From the NCBI GenBank assembly GCA_013997645.1, contig PNKB01000004.1, forward strand, positions 1 through 64,000: a DNA stretch of 64,000 bases. The letters run 5' to 3'. This stretch comes from Cyanobacteria bacterium PR.3.49. Its GTDB lineage: Bacteria; Cyanobacteriota; Vampirovibrionia; Obscuribacterales; Obscuribacteraceae. Below are positions 47,903 through 61,461 of the stretch, piece after piece. The notes below the pieces were generated by a model. It was given only the letters and a program-made list of their open reading frames with translations, ran no database searches and was not told the origin of the DNA. Positions within the stretch are counted from its first letter, which is position 1, and each line of letters opens with the position of its first letter. A program made the position numbers and the translations under genes.

Positions 47903-50800
47903 TTACGAGCCGCTTACACCGGCACGCTCAGGAGCTATGTACTCTTCTCTCGGTCGAGTAGCGAGGTAGAGACCCAAAGCAGCACTGGCAATGATGGCGA
48001 CGCCAAACGCACCGCTCTTCACCTCGCCCAACTTGAATCCTCCAGTCGGTCTGGAAGCGGCCATCTTCTCAATCAGCGCTTTATGCACTTCGGGTTTGTG
48101 CAGGTTTTCCAGCACGTAGCGATGAGCTGCGAGTTCGACTCTTTCTTTCGCTTCGAGCTTGTTGGTTTTCTCTCTTGCTTCGAGGTCCCGTACACGGTTC
48201 TCCAGCATCTTCACTTCATCGGCGACGAGCAGTTCCTTCGCAGTGGCTTCGGTTCCAATCAGTCGAGCACCTACGGATTCCCGATTGCGTGTCATGGTTC
48301 CGTCAGGATTCGCGGTTTGCTCCACGCCGCTGATTCTTTCAGCGCTCGGTCCCGAACCACGACGCGGTCTTCTTGGCGCTTCAGTTTCCACCGGCTTAAC
48401 TTCAGCCACAGGTGCTCCGGAAGCCGGGTTCAACAGTGACTTAACTACCTGCGAACCCATCGGTCGAGCTTCGATTCCTTCCATCTTGAACAAGAAACCA
48501 TTTCCGGCACCCGGCTCCATGCTTTGTTTTCCATCCATCGGTATGTATTGATAGATAGAGTTCGAGCCTGCCTTCTGGAAGAATACGCCTTTCTCACCGG
48601 CAACCTCAACGCGATTGTAGGTGGCGCTATCAAATGCCTGTCGAGTCGTTCCCATTTTCGTACCGGCTTCATTTTTCACGACAACCCGACCATCGACTTT
48701 GCCGACCGCTCTCCAGGTTTCTCCGCCTACGCTCGTGGTCTGATCAACTGTGATGCCGGAAACAATCTCGGCTCCAGGAGTTGGACGGAATCTGCTTTCG
48801 GCTGCAGGAGCTTCAGTTGCTGGGCGTTGCTCAGCTGGTGGGTTTTCCGTCGCGGGGCGTTGCTCCGCTGGCGGGTTTTCAGTTGCTGGACGTTGCTCCG
48901 CTGGTGGGTTCTCCGTCGCCGGGCGCTGCTCAGCCGGCGGGTTTTCCGTCGCTGGACGTTGCTCCGCTGGCGGATTCTCAGTCGCCGGGCGCTGCTCCGC
49001 TGGTGGGTTTTCCGTCGCGGGGCGTTGCTCCGCTGGTGGGTTCTCCGTCGCCGGGCGCTGCTCCGCTGGCGGATTCTCAGTAGCTGGACGTTTCTTGGCT
49101 TCTCGCTCAGCAGCCAGTCTTTGCTCTTCGGCTAATCTTTGCTCCGCAGCCAAACGCTCTGCATTTCTTTGCTCGGTGGCAACTCGCTCCGCTTCGACCT
49201 TCGCCGTACGTTCTGCCGGCGTCATCCAAGATGTTTTGTCGACCTCGGTCGGCGTCCGCCAGTTTTGCTTAAACTCTTTATCCGTCAGCAGTTTCACTTC
49301 GCCGTTCTCAGTCACGGCCCACATCTTGCGATCGGCTTGTTTTCCAAGACCCAGTTCGCCATTCAGTTCCTTGAGGTCAGGAAGTTGCACAGCTTTCGCG
49401 CGCTCGGCGGTTGTACTCTTGTATTCGCCTGGCTTGGCGGTTTCCGTGTACCGTTCTTTGAACTCGGCTTCCGTCAAGTAAGCTTCTTTGCCGTCACGAC
49501 CGGTGACTTTGTACTTGCCTGCATGCTCGCCTTCTTTTATTTGCTCTGCTTTCACCATGGTATCGCGGGCCACATCCTGACCGGAGCGCTCAATGGCTTC
49601 GCGCAATCTGGCAGCGTTTTCAGGATTTTGTGCAAGAGCTTCATTACCTTGATTGCGCGAGCGCTCAGCGGCGATTCTGCTGCCTTGCTGAAACAACCGA
49701 TAGCCCATATAACCGGCGGTGGCTGCGGCAAGCAACTTTTGCGTGTCGGTCAAACTGTCCCATACGCCTTTGTCGACACCCTTGGGCGGCTCTTGTGCGG
49801 GCGGAGTGAAATCTTCCACCGGCTGTTGGGATGGTGGAAGCGCGTCACTAGGCGTTTCCGGTCCGCGGACGAAAGGAGGAATTACGATTGGCGGCACCTG
49901 GTCACCAGGTTGTGGGCCGACCTGTGCTTCGCCACCAGGAACGTGGAAAAATCCTGGATTGCCGTCAGCAGGCACGTGTCCGTCTGGTCCTCGTCCAGGT
50001 CTTCCGGGAGCGCCCGGTCCTCTTTGTGGAATTCCACCAGGCACACCTGTGTTGCCGTCACCGGACCACTGGTAGGGATCATTCGGTCCGAGCGAACCGC
50101 CGTTCAGCGCGCGATCTCGATTAGCTATCGCCGCTTTCTTTGCGGCTTCGGCAGCGTCCCAAAAATGTTTGTTATTCGCCAATTCCGGACGCAGTTTCAA
50201 CGCGTCTTCCACCAGCTCACGCCCCTGCTTCATCAACCTGTCATTGCCGGTGCTGATCAAGGCAAAACCAGCATTGGCTCTTGTAGTTCCAGGAGCTAAA
50301 TAGTCGGCAGTGATATCGCGCAGTTCAGCTTTCAACTTTTGTTGCTGCTGAAGAAGTCCGTTGATTTGTTCTTGCGTGTCACCGGCAGCTTTCGCTTTCG
50401 CTATCTGAGTTTCAAGCTGGTTTTGCGCCGCGAAATTAGTTTTACCGCGCGCCACAGTTTCGACCTGATTAATAGAATCAGCGGCCTTGATGTCTTCGCG
50501 ATAAGGCACGAGCGCTTTGGGAACACTGTACAGCAGCTTGATCTCGCGCTGCATCGCCAGTTCTTTTGCCGGTCCTTCCGGCATATCCTCAATGCGACGC
50601 TCAGACGGGCCCAACTGCTGAAACCACTCTGCGCCCGGCGGTTGGAAGGACAACTGCCCACTGTTGTCGCTAGCCGCAACTGGACCATTCGTTTGATCGA
50701 CTTTCGGCAGCGGCCTCGAAAACTGGTAAAGATCAGGGTTCGGCAAATCCTCTTCTGCAGGAGCATTTGCTGGTCTGGTATCAATTTCAGTTGGAGCCAT
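47903..50800 (-). CDS. Large (965 aa) repeat-containing, likely tail-anchored protein
   Basis: Eight in-frame 11-aa PPAEQRPATEN repeats, Pro/Gly-rich region, C-terminal TM (FGVAIIASAALGLYLATRP). Confidence 0.8.
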   Translation of the reverse strand: MAPTEIDTRPANAPAEEDLPNPDLYQFSRPLPKVDQTNGPVAASDNSGQLSFQPPGAEWFQQLGPSERRIEDMPEGPAKELAMQREIKLLYSVPKALVPYREDIKAADSINQVETVARGKTNFAAQNQLETQIAKAKAAGDTQEQINGLLQQQQKLKAELRDITADYLAPGTTRANAGFALISTGNDRLMKQGRELVEDALKLRPELANNKHFWDAAEAAKKAAIANRDRALNGGSLGPNDPYQWSGDGNTGVPGGIPQRGPGAPGRPGRGPDGHVPADGNPGFFHVPGGEAQVGPQPGDQVPPIVIPPFVRGPETPSDALPPSQQPVEDFTPPAQEPPKGVDKGVWDSLTDTQKLLAAATAGYMGYRLFQQGSRIAAERSRNQGNEALAQNPENAARLREAIERSGQDVARDTMVKAEQIKEGEHAGKYKVTGRDGKEAYLTEAEFKERYTETAKPGEYKSTTAERAKAVQLPDLKELNGELGLGKQADRKMWAVTENGEVKLLTDKEFKQNWRTPTEVDKTSWMTPAERTAKVEAERVATEQRNAERLAAEQRLAEEQRLAAEREAKKRPATENPPAEQRPATENPPAEQRPATENPPAEQRPATENPPAEQRPATENPPAEQRPATENPPAEQRPATENPPAEQRPATENPPAEQRPATEAPAAESRFRPTPGAEIVSGITVDQTTSVGGETWRAVGKVDGRVVVKNEAGTKMGTTRQAFDSATYNRVEVAGEKGVFFQKAGSNSIYQYIPMDGKQSMEPGAGNGFLFKMEGIEARPMGSQVVKSLLNPASGAPVAEVKPVETEAPRRPRRGSGPSAERISGVEQTANPDGTMTRNRESVGARLIGTEATAKELLVADEVKMLENRVRDLEAREKTNKLEAKERVELAAHRYVLENLHKPEVHKALIEKMAASRPTGGFKLGEVKSGAFGVAIIASAALGLYLATRPREEYIAPERAGVSGS
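48816..49079. repeat. 33-bp tandem repeat, eight units, coding
   Basis: Units of gtYgcYgggcgYtgctcMgcYggYgggttYtcM read directly; encodes PPAEQRPATEN on the minus strand. Confidence 0.9.
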
Positions 50801-50896
50801 GGATTGTCTTCCTCATGAGCACGCAAGCAAGAACAAGGTGGTCAGCCACTTGCCGGTGCAATAGTTTCACTCATTTGCGCGCCTATAAGATGTGGT

Positions 50897-51217
50897 CTAT
50901 TGCGCGCGTGCTGCGTTTTGAAGCAATCTGCTAAACCATTCCAGACTTTGCGGTGCCGCACCGTCTGACTCTTTGACAGGCACCGGGGCAGGTGCGTAGT
51001 CAGAAGTACTTGCTGCCGGGGCTTGAAGCTGCGCAGGAGTGAAGTCTATGTCCCCATCTACTAATTCAAAGGCATCAAGATTAAATGCGAGAGGAACTGA
51101 TGATTGTGCGTTAGTTGCAACGGACATAACTCTTCGATCTGCAAAGTAAGAAAGCTCATTCTGAATTTTGTTGAGAACAGCATGCTCACGTTTTTGCGTC
51201 GCGGTAAAGTTAGCCAT
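50897..51217 (-). CDS. Hypothetical protein
   Basis: 106 aa ORF upstream of and co-oriented with the 965-aa gene. Confidence 0.5.
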   Translation of the reverse strand: MANFTATQKREHAVLNKIQNELSYFADRRVMSVATNAQSSVPLAFNLDAFELVDGDIDFTPAQLQAPAASTSDYAPAPVPVKESDGAAPQSLEWFSRLLQNAARAQ

Positions 51218-51678
51218 CGCCGTTACCTGCCTTGATTTATAGAATCGAATACCCTGCGCTACTGGGGTGGTTACAGTCCAGATTAGACGCAGCTTATTTC
51301 AATTTTGTTGCAGCCAAGACCGCTGCCCAGAGTTTGGCAGGAGTGATTATGGAAGGTGCTTGAGGGCCATTTTGAAATGAGCGATGAGAAACAAAGACAA
51401 GGGCTTGAAATGAGCGTAGCTCTAATAACTGGGCCACTAAATATTTAAATGCAATGGTTGGAAAAAACTTCCCACCTGCGCTTGGGCCGCTCAGAAAAAA
51501 AATTTGTTATTGCTCATTTTTTGCCTTGACTTGATGTGTTCAAAACAGGCAGCCTGAAAGCCTATTCATCATTTCTCAATAGCGGAGATTTCCACCAGCC
51601 ACGGCGGCAAATTCCAAGTTTATGGACTACCCCAATGCGCACCATTTATGGTGGCGCTGCCGTTCGCATGAGGAGACA

Positions 51679-52638
51679 ATGCAGATGAGTATGACCATGA
51701 AAGAGTACGATGGCATGCTGGCCGTCGCCTGCATCGTCCTCGCTGTGGTGCTCAATGCGCTGCAGATTTCATACATCGCAGACGGCCTTGTTATGGCTTC
51801 GCATCAGGGATATATCATGGCCACTCTGATGGCGATAGTCATCTCAAGCGGACTTTTCTACAGCGTCTTCACAAGTCACCGTTTGTGGCTGAAAGGACAA
51901 CCACGCTATTACGCCTGGATTTTCGGCAGCCTCGCCGGAATTCTTGTCGGAGCCATGGCGGCTTGGTCCTTATCTTATTCAGCGCAAGTCGGCACAGCAC
52001 GGTGGTGGTTGGGACTTTTCCTGGGTCTTACCATTCCCGGCCAAACTCTGGCCCTGTGCAACATGACCAATGGAATGCTCGATTTGGCGGGTCCTGGTTG
52101 GTGGAAACGGCGCAAAGCCGGTTCTATTTCTCAGCGGCCCGAGCAGATCGATGCAAGCGAAACACATGTCGCAGCGCCGGCACCACCGGTAGCTCTACAT
52201 TCCATTGCCCCGGACGAAACTCGTGAAAGTTCGCAATTAGAGACGCAAGTCGAAGTAGAAGAAGTTCGCGCGGTGACCGCAGTTTCACTGGCTCAACCCC
52301 CTGAAGAGCTAGCCTCGATAATTGTTTCTCAAAACAGCGCTATGCAAATTTCCATCACTGGAGATCGCATCGCAATCCGCGTCGGCAGACAACTGTCGAA
52401 TAGAAAGTGGAAGCAATTCCACTTGGATTTGCGCCGCATTCCGTCCATCACTTGGGATGAAGCTCACAAGGCTAGTTCTATTGAAGGTCGGGCGGATCGC
52501 ACTGTGGAGGGAACGTTGCGAGTACAGCCTATTAAGGGGAAGAAGAACAGGCAGAAACGGCGGGCTGCTCGCCAACAGCAACTCGATGCCATTGCAGGAA
52601 GGCTCAAGGAGCTGGTCGAGCAGCACAGTTCAAATTGA
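51679..52638 (+). CDS. Membrane protein with cytoplasmic C-terminal domain
   Basis: GAGGAGA RBS before ATG 51679; four TM-like segments followed by charged C-terminus. Confidence 0.65.
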   Translation: MQMSMTMKEYDGMLAVACIVLAVVLNALQISYIADGLVMASHQGYIMATLMAIVISSGLFYSVFTSHRLWLKGQPRYYAWIFGSLAGILVGAMAAWSLSYSAQVGTARWWLGLFLGLTIPGQTLALCNMTNGMLDLAGPGWWKRRKAGSISQRPEQIDASETHVAAPAPPVALHSIAPDETRESSQLETQVEVEEVRAVTAVSLAQPPEELASIIVSQNSAMQISITGDRIAIRVGRQLSNRKWKQFHLDLRRIPSITWDEAHKASSIEGRADRTVEGTLRVQPIKGKKNRQKRRAARQQQLDAIAGRLKELVEQHSSN

Positions 52639-52980: not shown

Positions 52981-53565
52981 ATGACCGATGTAGCTTCTGT
53001 ATCTACACCCCCCGCAACGCGTGGGGCAGCCGGCTTCCCCGTCCGCATCTATCAGTGGTACGTGGGCGGCACATATGACCAGATGCTTGTGAAAGCAGCG
53101 ATCACGATCCAACTGATTCTCTTGAGTCTCAGCCTCATTCACCAGACGAATGCTGTTTCTCAAGTGACAGGGATGTCGTGGACGTTGGCTTTCATGCAAG
53201 CCGTTGTTCAGGACTTCGGGCTATTCGTGTCCGAGCTTGTTCTCATACGGTTTCAGCAGACCGGCAGGTCCACGCTCTGGGCGACGCTATTTGTTGTTTT
53301 CGCGGCCCTTGCAAGCGGGTCGGGAAACGTCTTCGACTTCACGCAAAGGTTGGTACCTTACAGCGTCAACTGGTGGTTGTCTGCCTGCTACGGTGCTTCA
53401 GTGCCGCTGCAGGTCCTGCTTCTCGGCAAGATGGTCAGCCAACTTGTCACCGAGAAAAAGGTAAAACAGACAGCGGAGACTAAGTCGAAAGACGGGGCGC
53501 CTAGGGTGCGGTCGCCGAAAGCGGCAGCCCCGAAGACATCCGCGCGTGAGAAACGCGACTCATAG
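52981..53565 (+). CDS. Membrane protein with basic C-terminal tail
   Basis: 194 aa; 3-4 TM segments; KVKQTAETKSKDGAPRVRSPKAAAPKTSAREKRDS tail. Confidence 0.6.
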   Translation: MTDVASVSTPPATRGAAGFPVRIYQWYVGGTYDQMLVKAAITIQLILLSLSLIHQTNAVSQVTGMSWTLAFMQAVVQDFGLFVSELVLIRFQQTGRSTLWATLFVVFAALASGSGNVFDFTQRLVPYSVNWWLSACYGASVPLQVLLLGKMVSQLVTEKKVKQTAETKSKDGAPRVRSPKAAAPKTSAREKRDS

Positions 53566-53574
53566 CGACGTGCA

Positions 53575-53608
53575 GGAAGGCGGGCGGCAACCAAGCCGTC
53601 CACCTTCC
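53575..53608 (+). terminator. Intergenic stem-loop
   Basis: ggaaggcgggcggc aaccaa gccgtccaccttcc. Confidence 0.5.
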
Positions 53609-53791
53609 ACTCATTTGCATGAATGAAAACTTGCATTAACTTGTGCGCACAATCATGGGCACCATATTTAGTGCTTATCGTTGTTCGCATTACTGGATTC
53701 AAATGTCCAGCGAACTTCCGGTGCGGTCCAAACCACCTGCAAAATGACCAATCACTGACTGCCAAACTCTCATTGAAATTGGAGAATCACC

Positions 53792-54334
53792 ATGAAGTGC
53801 ATGCAAATAGATGGAATCTCATGGCCGGGTCTGTTGATTTTTCGAGACAATGGACGCCATGCCGTTGGTGCACCACACCTGCGGGCTCTAGCTTACATCT
53901 GCGAAGAGAACTACAAAAAAATGGTAGCCAAAAACGACATTCTCAATGTCAGTATCCCGGCGCCGCCAAAAAGACCGACACTTTACGACGACATCGTTGG
54001 CAACAACGCACCTTTTGTCCTGCGTGCGGAAGTAAATATCAAAGAAAACGGAGAAGTCTGGCTTGTCCCAAATTATTCAAAAAAATCCGAACTGATTGTG
54101 CTTACAGTCGATTTTTGGACCGCCGAAGATTGCGTCAGCCACTTCCTCGGCGACATGGACCGACTGGCTACTGTAATGGACCCAACCAGCAGCAAGACAT
54201 ATCACCTGCTGCGTTTGTCTCGCGACAGTGGTGTGGTTTCCATCAACAAGGGGTGGCACGGCAAAATTCCAAACGGCAAGATCATAGACTACCGACTGTT
54301 CTATTACGAAAACGGTCTAATGGCGATCAAGTAA
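53792..54334 (+). CDS. Tandem paralog family member 1 (unknown function)
   Basis: MKCMQIDGISWPGLLIF...; NGEVWLVPNYSKKSELIVLTVDFW; YHLLRLSRDSGVVSI; ttggagaatcaccATG. Confidence 0.75.
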   Translation: MKCMQIDGISWPGLLIFRDNGRHAVGAPHLRALAYICEENYKKMVAKNDILNVSIPAPPKRPTLYDDIVGNNAPFVLRAEVNIKENGEVWLVPNYSKKSELIVLTVDFWTAEDCVSHFLGDMDRLATVMDPTSSKTYHLLRLSRDSGVVSINKGWHGKIPNGKIIDYRLFYYENGLMAIK

Positions 54335-54414
54335 TCAGCAACATCTATCAGTAGTCAGCAAACAAGCGGAGGCGGGAAACAACCCGTTCTCCGTTTTCAA
54401 AATGGAAAATCACC

Positions 54415-54975
54415 ATGCGCTGCATCACCATCCATTCTCGCCCAACCAACGGAATTTGGATCTTTCCGAGTGACGACGATAATTACTCCGTGGCACTCCC
54501 GGGCCTCGGCAACATTGCCTATATCAGCCGCAAATCGGTTAGCACTATGCTTGCCGTCGGACAGTGCGTATTCGGCGTCATCGAAGATCAGCTGCTCCAG
54601 GACAACATCTATAGCTGCTATCCTTCGGGAACCGAAGCGATGTTCATCCTGGCTTGCGACTGCCATCACGATGCCGACGGCGTCCTCTGGCTGACTCCGG
54701 AATTGCATCCTGATAATGAGCTGTTGGTGCTGACCAGAGAACACTGGAGAAGCCCGCGCCGAAATTCGCATGTTATCGGGGACGTCAGCACTCTTGCAAA
54801 CATCAATGACGGCAATATCTTCTACAGCCTTCTTGATGTAAACCGGGAAAGCGGCATCCTCACAGTCAGCGATGTCGTCAACTCGGAGACAGGAAAAATG
54901 GAGCAGCGGCTCACAAGATCACTGTATCGCCGCTTTGACGACAACCTGATAATCGAGCCGCTTCCTGCTCTTTGA
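54415..54975 (+). CDS. Tandem paralog family member 2 (unknown function)
   Basis: MRCITIHSRPTNGIWIF...; DGVLWLTPELHPDNELLVLTREHW; YSLLDVNRESGILTV. Confidence 0.75.
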   Translation: MRCITIHSRPTNGIWIFPSDDDNYSVALPGLGNIAYISRKSVSTMLAVGQCVFGVIEDQLLQDNIYSCYPSGTEAMFILACDCHHDADGVLWLTPELHPDNELLVLTREHWRSPRRNSHVIGDVSTLANINDGNIFYSLLDVNRESGILTVSDVVNSETGKMEQRLTRSLYRRFDDNLIIEPLPAL

Positions 54976-55015
54976 AGTTTCGAAACCAGCAAAGATACAA
55001 TTTTGGAGAATGAAA

Positions 55016-55639
55016 ATGCGTTGCATCACCCTTACTGATCGTGCTTTCGACGGCATTCGCCTGCGCGAGCACAAAGGCAAATATGTGGTCGATGGACCCG
55101 ATGGAGAAGCGATGGCATTCGTGTCATTTCGCTCCTTCGAGGAGATGGTGAAGCTTGGACATGCTTCTCATCGCTCGCAGCCTCAGCGCTTCGAAAAAGT
55201 GGGCAAGCTTCTCGGACTGTTCGAGAGCGTTCCGGTCATCTACCGCTGCAGTTATGAAACAGCGGCAAACGAAAATATTTGGCTCATTTCCAAAAGTGAA
55301 GATGAGCGTAATACCAAAGACGTTCTTGTCATGGCTCCAAGGTTTTGCTGCAATCGCACGACCATGGAGTGCGTGCACATGCCCAGCCGTACGCTTGTCC
55401 AGAAAGTTAATCGCCTCAGCAATACGCGCTACAACCTCATGCATCTGGTTGCCGAATATCCGGCTAATTGCTACAGCAATGCCCGCTCCAAAAAGCCGGG
55501 CACCGGGCGCTCGCTCCTTAAGCCTCTGCGCAAAGCCGAGTATCAGCTGGACATGATTCCGCGGCGCTCCATCGTCGTCGATCGCGACGGAGTCGTTTCC
55601 ATCACCCGCCCGAACACCAAAATGGTTTTCTGGCACTAG
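55016..55639 (+). CDS. Tandem paralog family member 3 (unknown function)
   Basis: MRCITLTDRAFDGIRLREHKGKYVVDGPDGEAMAFVSFRSFEEMV; NENIWLISKSEDERNTKDVLVMAPRF. Confidence 0.75.
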   Translation: MRCITLTDRAFDGIRLREHKGKYVVDGPDGEAMAFVSFRSFEEMVKLGHASHRSQPQRFEKVGKLLGLFESVPVIYRCSYETAANENIWLISKSEDERNTKDVLVMAPRFCCNRTTMECVHMPSRTLVQKVNRLSNTRYNLMHLVAEYPANCYSNARSKKPGTGRSLLKPLRKAEYQLDMIPRRSIVVDRDGVVSITRPNTKMVFWH

Positions 55640-55677
55640 CATCAAACGTGCAGTTAATCATGCAATGGAGAGCGTAA

Positions 55678-56289
55678 ATGCGTTGTATGACCAAGAAGAA
55701 AACCTTCTTCAGCGGAGGCATCCCTCTTGTCCGCCTTGAAGATCGCTACGCAGTCACCACTCCCGGTGGCGCGCCTATCGCCTTCGTCTCGTTCGAAGAT
55801 TTTGCAGAGATGCTCAGAACAGGCGAAGCTACCAATCAAGATCATGAGGAGGGTTGCAGGAAGGACGAAACTTGCCGGTGCACTTTCCCATGCAACGGCA
55901 TCGGACCGATGGTTCACTCATGCGATTACAAACGCGGGAAAAACCTCGAAATTTGGCTGATCCCGCAAACAGCGTTCAGTTCGTCGATCCTCATTCTCAC
56001 CCCCGAATTCTGGCGCAGAGACGAAACAACCGTTGAGTACACTGCGCCTACTCAGTATCTTGCAACCGCGAAGGACGAGGACAGCAGCGAAATTCACGTG
56101 CTGCTGATTCTTTCGCAGAAATCCAGCATCACTGCACATTCAGGGGTTCGGCTGCCCGTCCGCGGCACCGGACCGACGCTGTTTCGTCCCTGGCGCAAGC
56201 GCCATTACGAACCAGTCAAGGTCACATGGACTGCCCTGTACCTCAACAGCTACGGACAGCCGAAAAGCGAGCCCAACCCGCTCGACTAA
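55678..56289 (+). CDS. Tandem paralog family member 4 (unknown function)
   Basis: MRCMTKKKTFFSGGIPLVRLEDRYAVTTPGGAPIAFVSFEDFAEML; KNLEIWLIPQTAFSSSILILTPEFW. Confidence 0.75.
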   Translation: MRCMTKKKTFFSGGIPLVRLEDRYAVTTPGGAPIAFVSFEDFAEMLRTGEATNQDHEEGCRKDETCRCTFPCNGIGPMVHSCDYKRGKNLEIWLIPQTAFSSSILILTPEFWRRDETTVEYTAPTQYLATAKDEDSSEIHVLLILSQKSSITAHSGVRLPVRGTGPTLFRPWRKRHYEPVKVTWTALYLNSYGQPKSEPNPLD

Positions 56290-56337
56290 CGGATGACTGG
56301 AAGTTCAATCAGCAGAAAACCCATGAAAGGAAAGACA

Positions 56338-56556
56338 ATGACTCCGCATCCTGGAATTATCATCTCTATCGCCATCATCATCTTCCTGACTCTGTTTAAC
56401 GCCGACAAGCGTTGGACACCGATGGCAGGTATCATCGCTTTCGTCGTCGGCGGACTAGTGGTAGTGGGCGACCTGCCCATCTGGGCATGCCCGGTTGCCG
56501 CTATCGCCTTCCTCCTCGTTTTTGTGTGCGAACACATCTGGGGGGAAAAGTATTGA
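56338..56556 (+). CDS. Small two- to three-TM membrane protein
   Basis: MTPHPGIIISIAIIIFLTLFNADKRWTPMAGIIAFVVGGLVVV; AAGGAAAG RBS. Confidence 0.55.
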   Translation: MTPHPGIIISIAIIIFLTLFNADKRWTPMAGIIAFVVGGLVVVGDLPIWACPVAAIAFLLVFVCEHIWGEKY

Positions 56557-56734
56557 GAGTTCAGCGAAGAGCAAAAACAAATCTAGAAGCCAAACTGCGA
56601 GCGGGTCCAAAACCTGCTCGCCTTTTCTACGCCTCGAACTTTCAGCTTTTTCACCACATCTACTACCTCTCATAGCACTTCAAAAAAAAGGAGTATCAAC
56701 GAGCGCACAGAATGCATGCAACTCATGCGCTTTC

Positions 56735-58362: not shown

Positions 58363-58689
58363 TTATTGAGGGGCAAAAGTCTCCGCGCTCAACTGGGTGC
58401 AGGAGCGAGTTTTAACGTCGTTCAAAAGATGACTGTCATAAATCTCTTCCAGTATTTTTGTTTCCTCTTTCATCACGCTGGCCAGTTTCGCCAGCCTGAA
58501 CTTCTCTGCTTCCAGCTCGCGGATACGTTTTACATAAGCAGCATCCATACCTGAGAACCGCTTGCGCAGATTGTAGAGAGTGGCAACACTGATGCCGAAG
58601 CGATCGCAAATGCTGTGCACTCTGCCGCCGGCGTCCCATTGAGCCAGCGCGGAAACAACGTCTGCATCAGTCATGGATGGCTTTTTCAT
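58363..58689 (-). CDS. IS3-OrfA-like helix-turn-helix protein (transposase-derived)
   Basis: MTDADVVSALAQWDAGGRVHSICDRFGISVATLYNLRKRFSGMDAAYVKRIRELEAEKFRLAKL; ATG at 58689. Confidence 0.7.
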   Translation of the reverse strand: MKKPSMTDADVVSALAQWDAGGRVHSICDRFGISVATLYNLRKRFSGMDAAYVKRIRELEAEKFRLAKLASVMKEETKILEEIYDSHLLNDVKTRSCTQLSAETFAPQ

Positions 58690-58851
58690 AGCGGCGCACT
58701 CCGGAGTTTTCACGCACGATATAGAAGCAGGCGTGCAATTCGAGTGCAATTTTCTGAACGTTAGCACAATCAAAGCTTGTGCACGGCGTTTGCACGCATT
58801 GATATCTAAGTTTGAAACACCTCACCGACAACAACACTTTGGAGATTCTGC

Positions 58852-59424
58852 ATGAATCACGCAACTTCTCTTCCGCAACTGGCAGTTCTGGCGCCGCTGG
58901 AAATCGACTTCGCACCGGTGCCCCAAGCGATACCTCAAACGGCACAGGATATATTTCAAGTTCTAGAAATGGAAGTTATTGAACTGAAAGCGAAAGTCGC
59001 CCAGGCAGAGAAGAGAAACAATGAGTTAAAACATGTGCTTCATTCCATATACACGACGCCGGCACAAAAACGCGCTTTGCTTGAAGAGCTCGAATGGAAG
59101 CATCAGATCAGCCGTCGTCGCGCTTGCCGCCTACTTAATTTGGCGCGTTCCACCTGTTGGTATCGGACCGCCGCAGAAGGTCGTCTGCCGCCGAAGCCAA
59201 GCAAGCCGATAACGGCGCTCTCGCAAACATCGATGATTGCACACTTGAAAAAGGTCAGCCGTCAAATCAAAAATGGATTTATTGCCGAGGAAGAATGCGT
59301 GCAAGAACAATTCGCTTGCGGGCTAATTCGGCTCGGATTGCCGGTCGCAGCCAACCTGGCCAAAATGAATCTCAATCTCGCAATCGACATTTTTCTCGCC
59401 TGGTGCGAGCGCACAGGCAAGTAA
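58852..59424 (+). CDS. Protein with IS3-OrfB N-terminal HTH-like segment but no DDE domain
   Basis: TPAQKRALLEELEWKHQISRRRACRLLNLARSTCWYRTA; no transposase catalytic region follows; TTGGAGA RBS region. Confidence 0.65.
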   Translation: MNHATSLPQLAVLAPLEIDFAPVPQAIPQTAQDIFQVLEMEVIELKAKVAQAEKRNNELKHVLHSIYTTPAQKRALLEELEWKHQISRRRACRLLNLARSTCWYRTAAEGRLPPKPSKPITALSQTSMIAHLKKVSRQIKNGFIAEEECVQEQFACGLIRLGLPVAANLAKMNLNLAIDIFLAWCERTGK

Positions 59425-59441
59425 ATCTCTAAACAGCCTCC

Positions 59442-59470
59442 AAAAAGATTTTTCGCCGAAAAATCTTTTT
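59442..59470. terminator. A/T-flanked hairpin (bidirectional terminator-like)
   Basis: aaaaagatttttcgccgaaaaatctttttg between convergent genes. Confidence 0.7.
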
Positions 59471-59472
59471 GA

Positions 59473-61461
59473 TTAACCGAGCCGCCAGCCGAGTTCCTCT
59501 ACGGCGTCCTCATATTTCATATCTTTGCTCTGGCAGAGCTTCAACAGAGTATGCGCATGATCGGATTTGAGCGTACCTTTATCAACCAGACCGCGGCACT
59601 TCACTGCGGCGTCTTTGACCACGCGCTTAATGGCACCCTGCGCAACGAGAAGCGAAATCAGCTCACCGCCGACGTTCTTCTTCATCTTGGTTGCTTCTTC
59701 AATTTGTGAATCTTTGACCAGACCCGCCTGGACAATCAAATCAAGAACAGCATCGCCCGAACCTGCAGGCGCCGCGGGCATCCCCTGATGCGACATGGCG
59801 TGCTGCTGATTTCCTTGCTGAGGCATGCCCTGTTGCATCCCTTGCTGCGGCATCCCCTGTTGTGGCATGCCTTGCTGAGGCATACCCTGTTGTGGCATCC
59901 CTTGCTGCGGCATACCGGGCATTCCAGGCATGCCAGGCATTGGCATACCGGGCATCGGATAACCCTGCATCGGATAAGGCGGCATGCCCGGCATTCCGTA
60001 ACCCTGCATCGGATAGGGCGGCATTTGCGGCATACCATAACCACCCATGGGCGGCGGCATCGGCACTGATGGAGCCGGTGCGGTAGGAGAAACTTTTCTG
60101 TGCTTGGAAGTATCGATATTGGTGGACGCATTTTTCAAATCGTGGAAAACATCGATCGCGCCTTGATAGCGATCTTTCAGTTGTTTGGCCATGGCTTTGA
60201 AAACAATTTCTTGGATTTGTTGATCGTGCTGCACACCGGGTCTGACGACGCTGAAAAGCGGCGGCATTTCGTGAATGTGCATGTACATCGCTTGATAGGG
60301 GTTTTCACCAAGCAAGGGAACGCGCCCGGTGATTGCCTCATACATGACACAGCCCAGAGAATAGATGTCCGTGCGCCAGTCCATCGCAGCCCCCATGCAC
60401 TGCTCGGGGCTCATATAATGCGGACTGCCGACGACGTCGCCGGTGCGCGTCAATTCCATAAGCGTACCGTCGTTGCGAGGCATGATTTTGGCGACGCCGA
60501 AATCCACAATTTTGACAAGATCACCGCCGTCCGAGCCGTTGATGAGCATGACATTGCTCGGCTTCATGTCGCGGTGAACGATGCCTTTGGAGTGCGCGTG
60601 AGCCAAGCCTTCGCAGCACTGGATGAAAATTTCCAGGAAGCGTTCGACGCTCAAAGGTCCCTTCTGCCGCAGGACTTCCTTCAAGCTGACGCCTTCAATA
60701 TATTCCATGACCAGGAAAGGCTGACCGCTTGGAGAGAAGTCGCAGTCATATACCATGACGCAGTTTGAATGGCTGAGCGAGCTTGTTGCGTTCACTTCCT
60801 GCTCGAAGCGTTTTTTGGAAGAAAGGTCTTCCAAAAGGTGACCATGCAGTACCTTAATTGCGACAATGCGATCCATCTTTAAGTGACGGGCTTTGTACAC
60901 GACGCCCATGCCACCACGACCGACTTCGTTGACGATTTCGTAGCGATCGGACAGAACAGCGCCGGGTTTGAGCAAGCCACCGGTTTGCTCCGGAGTGTCC
61001 CTTCTTTCTTTAACTTCCCGCCTTTGCTCTGATGCCTTGCCCTTCTTCGGGTCTTCGTCCTCCTCTTCAGGATACCCTCCCGGTGGAGGCTTCAGCGAGT
61101 CAGGGATGACTGCAGCCGGTCCGGATGGTTTGGCTGTTGCGACAAGAATGCTGTTAATCAGCTCGATATCAGGAGTTCTGTAATTCCATTGCTCTGATGA
61201 ATCCTGTCCGTTCGCCAGGCTGAGCACCCAGTAGACTTCGTTTTCGTCGGCGGAATGAGCGTGTTTGACCACAAGCTGATACTCGCCTTTGCCCTCCTCA
61301 GCCTGCCACGTCATGATTTGAGTTTGCTGCGGATTGGCAAGAGCCAGATTTTGTACGTTTTTCAGCTCGACCTCTGAGGGAAAAGTTTCCAGAGGAATAA
61401 TATTGGTCAGCTGTTTCTGCTGCTGATTTTTTTTATTCGTGAATGAATCTTTGAGTGCCAT
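59473..61461 (-). CDS. Ser/Thr protein kinase with Met/Pro/Gln/Gly repeat linker
   Basis: VGRGGMGVVYKARHLKMDRIVAIKVL; IVHRDMKPSNVML; VDFGVAKIM; SPEQCMG; (MPQQG)n linker. Confidence 0.92.
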   Translation of the reverse strand: MALKDSFTNKKNQQQKQLTNIIPLETFPSEVELKNVQNLALANPQQTQIMTWQAEEGKGEYQLVVKHAHSADENEVYWVLSLANGQDSSEQWNYRTPDIELINSILVATAKPSGPAAVIPDSLKPPPGGYPEEEDEDPKKGKASEQRREVKERRDTPEQTGGLLKPGAVLSDRYEIVNEVGRGGMGVVYKARHLKMDRIVAIKVLHGHLLEDLSSKKRFEQEVNATSSLSHSNCVMVYDCDFSPSGQPFLVMEYIEGVSLKEVLRQKGPLSVERFLEIFIQCCEGLAHAHSKGIVHRDMKPSNVMLINGSDGGDLVKIVDFGVAKIMPRNDGTLMELTRTGDVVGSPHYMSPEQCMGAAMDWRTDIYSLGCVMYEAITGRVPLLGENPYQAMYMHIHEMPPLFSVVRPGVQHDQQIQEIVFKAMAKQLKDRYQGAIDVFHDLKNASTNIDTSKHRKVSPTAPAPSVPMPPPMGGYGMPQMPPYPMQGYGMPGMPPYPMQGYPMPGMPMPGMPGMPGMPQQGMPQQGMPQQGMPQQGMPQQGMQQGMPQQGNQQHAMSHQGMPAAPAGSGDAVLDLIVQAGLVKDSQIEEATKMKKNVGGELISLLVAQGAIKRVVKDAAVKCRGLVDKGTLKSDHAHTLLKLCQSKDMKYEDAVEELGWRLG

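Follow-up and report, generated by a model that had tools for sequence, protein, structure and literature searches.

In Staphylococcus aureus, the immunity genes esaG and tsaI occur as strings of tandem copies that differ from one another and lie in variable islands (PMC9484751). The lpl clusters of the same species (PMC9484751) are likewise local tandem paralogs that change in copy number, and their products are lipoproteins. Here we analysed a four-gene array in a 64,000-nucleotide window, the whole stretch of DNA under study, from contig PNKB01000004.1 of Cyanobacteria bacterium PR.3.49. The array resembles the EsaG/TsaI arrays in being a string of non-identical small genes, in its variation in copy number among relatives and in its accessory location. 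However, no toxin or secretion system lies nearby, identity between the copies is far lower and no known family was detected; moreover, single-copy members of the present family are kept beside metabolic or transport genes. Unlike the lpl products, the array proteins contain no hydrophobic signal segment.

The array comprises four consecutive open reading frames (ORFs) on the forward strand, each assigned to the family by similarity: ORF1 (53792..54334; 180 aa, pI 8.4, net charge +2), ORF2 (54415..54975; 186 aa, pI 4.9, net charge −10), ORF3 (55010..55639; 209 aa, pI 9.7, net charge +13) and ORF4 (55678..56289; 203 aa, pI 7.6, net charge +1). All four have the codon-position composition of coding sequence. 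A 243-aa ORF in another frame (53623–54354) was rejected as a gene, as homologs exist for the 53792 frame only. The ORFs and nearly all motifs named in the original prediction, the central block included, were recovered. Each protein starts with M-[KR]-C-[IM]-[TQ], preceded in ORF3 by two extra residues (MK); ORFs 2–4 also carry the Y-x-V...[IM]-A-[FY]-[VI]-S segment. The exception was the late Y-x-L-L-x-[LV]-x-R-x-S-G block; its attribution to most copies was overstated, as ORFs 1 and 2 alone show it clearly and it has diverged in ORFs 3 and 4. Similar GGAGA starts had also been described: ORFs 3 and 4 carry GGAGA at a comparable position, and ORFs 1 and 2 have near-identical leaders, with a common leader and start, TGGARAATCACCATG, identical at 14 of 15 bases.

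Mutual similarity of the four proteins was significant and well above chance, with pairwise blastp E values of 5e-20 (ORFs 3 and 4), 2e-17 (1 and 2), 3e-14 (1 and 4), 1e-13 (2 and 4), 8e-7 (1 and 3) and 2e-4 (2 and 3). Compared with shuffled sequence, five of the six pairs reached Z values of 10–31. Only the ORF2–ORF3 pair was weak (Z 4.9), and these two can nevertheless be taken as homologous because each is linked to the other via the remaining copies. The comparisons confirmed, at the level of sequence, that the four ORFs are true, highly diverged homologous copies of one family of small, predicted soluble proteins. With identities of 16–28% among the copies, the duplications look old. The proposed local amplification with strong divergence held in that the genes were multiplied locally and diverged strongly, and was amended in that the array forms a single enlarged branch within a broader family made up mostly of single genes.

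Searches of Pfam, NCBIfam, PHROGs and PADLOC returned no match for the four ORFs (best E about 0.1), counting as membership any profile hit that reached the curated cut-off or had E < 0.001. Profile search thus placed them in no well characterised family, in agreement with the earlier view that the family was unrecognised, and profile search of PDB sequences gave no significant match either (best E 0.69). Using iterated profiles, we searched 50 genomes of the same GTDB family and recovered 31 members, spread over 20 of the genomes. This is a lower bound, given that many of the genomes are incomplete; the weakest few members (E 1e-4 to 4e-3) are less certain. At E 0.001, none was detected in a sample of 386 further genomes of the phylum. 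Phage records (50,697), plasmids (72,556), PHROGs and two IMG/VR scans likewise yielded no relative. Among the genomes searched, members were seen in one GTDB family only, as the suggestion of a lineage-specific family implied. These results support the assignment of the array to a previously undescribed and apparently lineage-restricted protein family. Undescribed, taxonomically restricted families are numerous in uncultured lineages.

The first profiles, built from the four ORFs, found relatives in three genomes (G004, G017 and G043), and adding those led to many more. Since the array branch was at first only marginally connected to the single-gene branch (E 0.004), the link was tested separately by profile–profile comparison. 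The array branch matched a profile of 15 single genes at 96.7% (E 4e-10, 118 columns) and still at 88.9% when it was represented by the array and G004 alone; among the controls, none of 50 column-shuffled versions exceeded 0.9%, and a reversed profile reached 0.6%. The aligned region covers the central and late part, and the N-terminal part is more variable. Besides the profile–profile match, the array has the M-x-C start, the R-A-x-[VL] ... L-x-P-E block and the late L ... D-G block of the wider family, although in its copies the late blocks are less pronounced.

Outside the array, members are mostly scattered single genes that typically begin with M-x-C. Their length across all 31 members is 153–224 aa (median 194), and Cys occurs at position 3 in 24 of 31 members compared with 14 of 194 neighbouring ORFs. 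Only the start Met and one Gly are common to all 31; beyond these, the positions that many members share are chiefly Leu, Gly, Arg-Ala, Pro-Glu and Cys3, and the single-gene subset has an invariant Cys (Cys3), Arg and Glu. A tree of nine members was poorly resolved, with only ORF1 and ORF2 (80/81) and G017 and G043b (93/99) forming groups. A match in G103 (E 0.007) was rejected as a member because it lies antisense to a long ORF. One shortened member of 155 aa (L022 7898–8365, reverse strand, G043:C137), whose profile match continues beyond a TAG stop, may be a decaying copy.

The AlphaFold2 model of ORF4, made with eight sequences, had a mean pLDDT of 83 and a pTM of 0.76. It is all-beta with one helix at residues 39–47, and the stretch 56–74 is of low confidence. 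The ORF1 model (pLDDT 72, pTM 0.71) shows the same order of elements and strands, with a poor C-terminus. Foldseek searches with both models yielded no significant match in the PDB (best E 0.43 for ORF4 and 0.11 for ORF1) or in BFVD (best E 0.14). The top-ranked match for ORF4, the PixA inclusion body protein (PDB 4lzk), is likewise beta-rich and of similar size, but an E value of 0.43 and a TM-score of 0.12–0.14 amount to no real structural match. Hydropathy revealed no signal peptide, lipobox or membrane segment, with a 19-residue maximum of at most 1.3 in every member tested, and we infer that the proteins are soluble and cytoplasmic. The suggestion that they are effectors is unsupported, as they have neither a signal peptide nor a membrane segment nor a secretion neighbour, although secretion signals of an unusual kind could escape such an analysis.

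Comparison with congeners showed that the array occupies a variable chromosomal slot flanked by conserved chromosomal genes. In the window it lies between genes at 47903–51217 and HTH and kinase genes at 58363–61461. In G006, orthologous flanks enclose Tad/Flp pilus genes (L058 6261–13558, G006:C2), and in G003 Tad genes, assigned by similarity to those of G006, adjoin the kinase flank (L059 4759–5998, G003:C621). The G004 slot holds two membrane genes, TM1 and TM2, followed by one member; two contigs seem to overlap by about 100 bases inside the end of this member, and a single copy is the simplest reading. The array copy closest to it is ORF3, at 36% identity, the best pair of members between the two genomes, whereas the flanking TM2 is 84% identical; the kinase flank is 95% identical over the part present. 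We also asked whether a 75-aa ORF ahead of this copy is a broken member and found no support for the idea. Just after the G004 copy, a short M-R-C-V-S frame with an early stop (L060 about 98–150, G004:C186) might be a remnant of another copy, being too short to tell. The slot offers a natural copy-number series of none, one and four among congeners.

The flanks of the slot have features of their own. On one side, the reverse-strand gene at 47903–50800 encodes a 965-aa protein with about nine tandem PAEQRPATEN-type repeats. On the other, a divergent gene pair (58363–58773, reverse; 58852–59424, forward), the first with a transposase-type HTH (HTH_Tnp_1), lies beside the kinase gene; it occupies the same place in G006 and has relatives in different surroundings in G033. 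The Ser/Thr protein kinase itself (59473–61461, reverse) contains a GMPQQ repeat stretch, and many weaker DNA matches to its kinase domain throughout each genome suggest that it belongs to a large kinase family.

Upstream of the array lie TM1 (51622..52638, forward), with four hydrophobic helices by hydropathy and a predicted cytosolic tail, and TM2 (52981..53565, forward), conserved beside the member in G004. They are tandem paralogs that share about 24% identity; a few genomes of the same family contain relatives, and a check for known domains found none in either protein. A DUF2637-like topology was considered for TM2, but Pfam gave it no support. Between TM2 and ORF1 is a 226-nt gap that holds a strong hairpin (53575..53608, forward; spacer z −4.7), which makes co-transcription of the array with TM1 and TM2 doubtful. 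The spacers within the array measure 80, 34 and 38 nt. The first of them contains a hairpin with a T-rich tail (54364..54396, forward; spacer z −3.5), a possible terminator or attenuator, and ORF1 may be transcribed partly apart from ORFs 2–4. A small membrane protein gene (56293..56556, forward; 87 aa, or 72 aa if the start is 56338) begins 3 bases after ORF4 and is followed by an intrinsic-terminator-like hairpin (56597..56621, forward; z −3.4) that would end the transcript; ORFs 2–4 and this gene are probably a single transcript. The small protein bears a weak resemblance, which is not significant, to small membrane ORFs in the slot of two congeners. A repeated hairpin motif was no commoner across the window than expected by chance.

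Members outside the slot have varied surroundings. In five congeners, a single-copy member adjoins a nucleoside transporter gene. This ortholog set is under purifying selection (dN/dS 0.18–0.36; the array copies themselves are too diverged for dN/dS), and its dN exceeds that of the adjacent transporter gene by a factor of about 3 to 16. In three genera, a class I/II aminotransferase gene directly precedes a member (L121 2–1731, L116 5552–7377 and L122 2747–4599), and in L121 the two genes overlap by 4 bases. Because neighbours differ from genome to genome, with no constant partner gene, context gives no function. For at least some of the family, the conservation of single-copy members speaks for an ordinary role in the cell.

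We favour, with somewhat less than even confidence, the reading that the proteins are non-enzymatic binding proteins whose copies have diverged to different partners. An old tandem expansion would have produced four strongly diverged copies of a lineage-restricted small soluble protein, each with the predicted form of a compact all-beta domain that includes a single helix. Each copy would act in the cytoplasm not as a catalyst but by binding a protein or small ligand, and the copies may be specialised, each for a different partner. This reading is preferred on the strength of the lack of a signal or membrane segment, the compact beta-rich fold, the paucity of invariant polar residues and the charge differences: the net charge spread from −10 to +13 among the copies fits diverged surfaces. 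An invariant polar set such as an active site would need was not seen across the 31 members, although at such divergence misalignment might mask conserved catalytic residues. That the family is instead one of small enzymes with fast sequence drift appears distinctly unlikely, because Cys3 and other polar residues are not kept throughout, for example in the array relatives of G017 and G043, even if the single-gene subset keeps Cys3, one Arg and one Glu without exception, so that an enzyme is conceivable there, and two sets of members adjoin metabolic or transport genes.

The reading with the best-known precedent for such arrays is immunity: each copy would neutralise a different toxin from competing bacteria, and the array would be a store of orphan immunity genes. 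The esaG and tsaI strings (PMC9484751), the variable slot and the strong charge differences among the copies all fit this reading, but we regard it as possible rather than likely. Near the array we found neither a toxin domain nor a secretion gene nor any PADLOC match, although orphan immunity genes need not have a toxin or secretion gene in proximity. Both the purifying-selected ortholog beside the nucleoside transporter gene and the member after the aminotransferase gene would be atypical for immunity genes, and recombination from gene to gene, as in esaG, was not seen among copies this dissimilar. A role as soluble subunits or sensors working with TM1 and TM2 draws on the TM1–TM2–member order repeated in G004, yet TM1/TM2 occur without an adjoining member in G033, G034 and, over the stretch that its contig covers, G002, many genomes, G017 and G043 among them, have members but no TM1/TM2 beside them, and the hairpin-bearing gap separates TM2 from ORF1; we consider it unlikely. 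Finally, the patchy distribution and variable slot could point to accessory genes derived from phages or plasmids; with conserved chromosomal genes on the flanks and no relative in any of the phage, plasmid, PHROGs and IMG/VR searches, such an origin is very unlikely.

A further and more speculative possibility, to which we assign a low probability, is that the proteins represent a new fold, or a new combination of folds, that is limited to this bacterial family and serves as a scaffold for fast-diversifying binding, with the array as a repertoire of specificities. The family comes with a reproducible profile and a confident predicted structure for which no structural relative was found in the PDB or BFVD. 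Its interest lies mainly in that fold and in the question whether each copy has a partner of its own.
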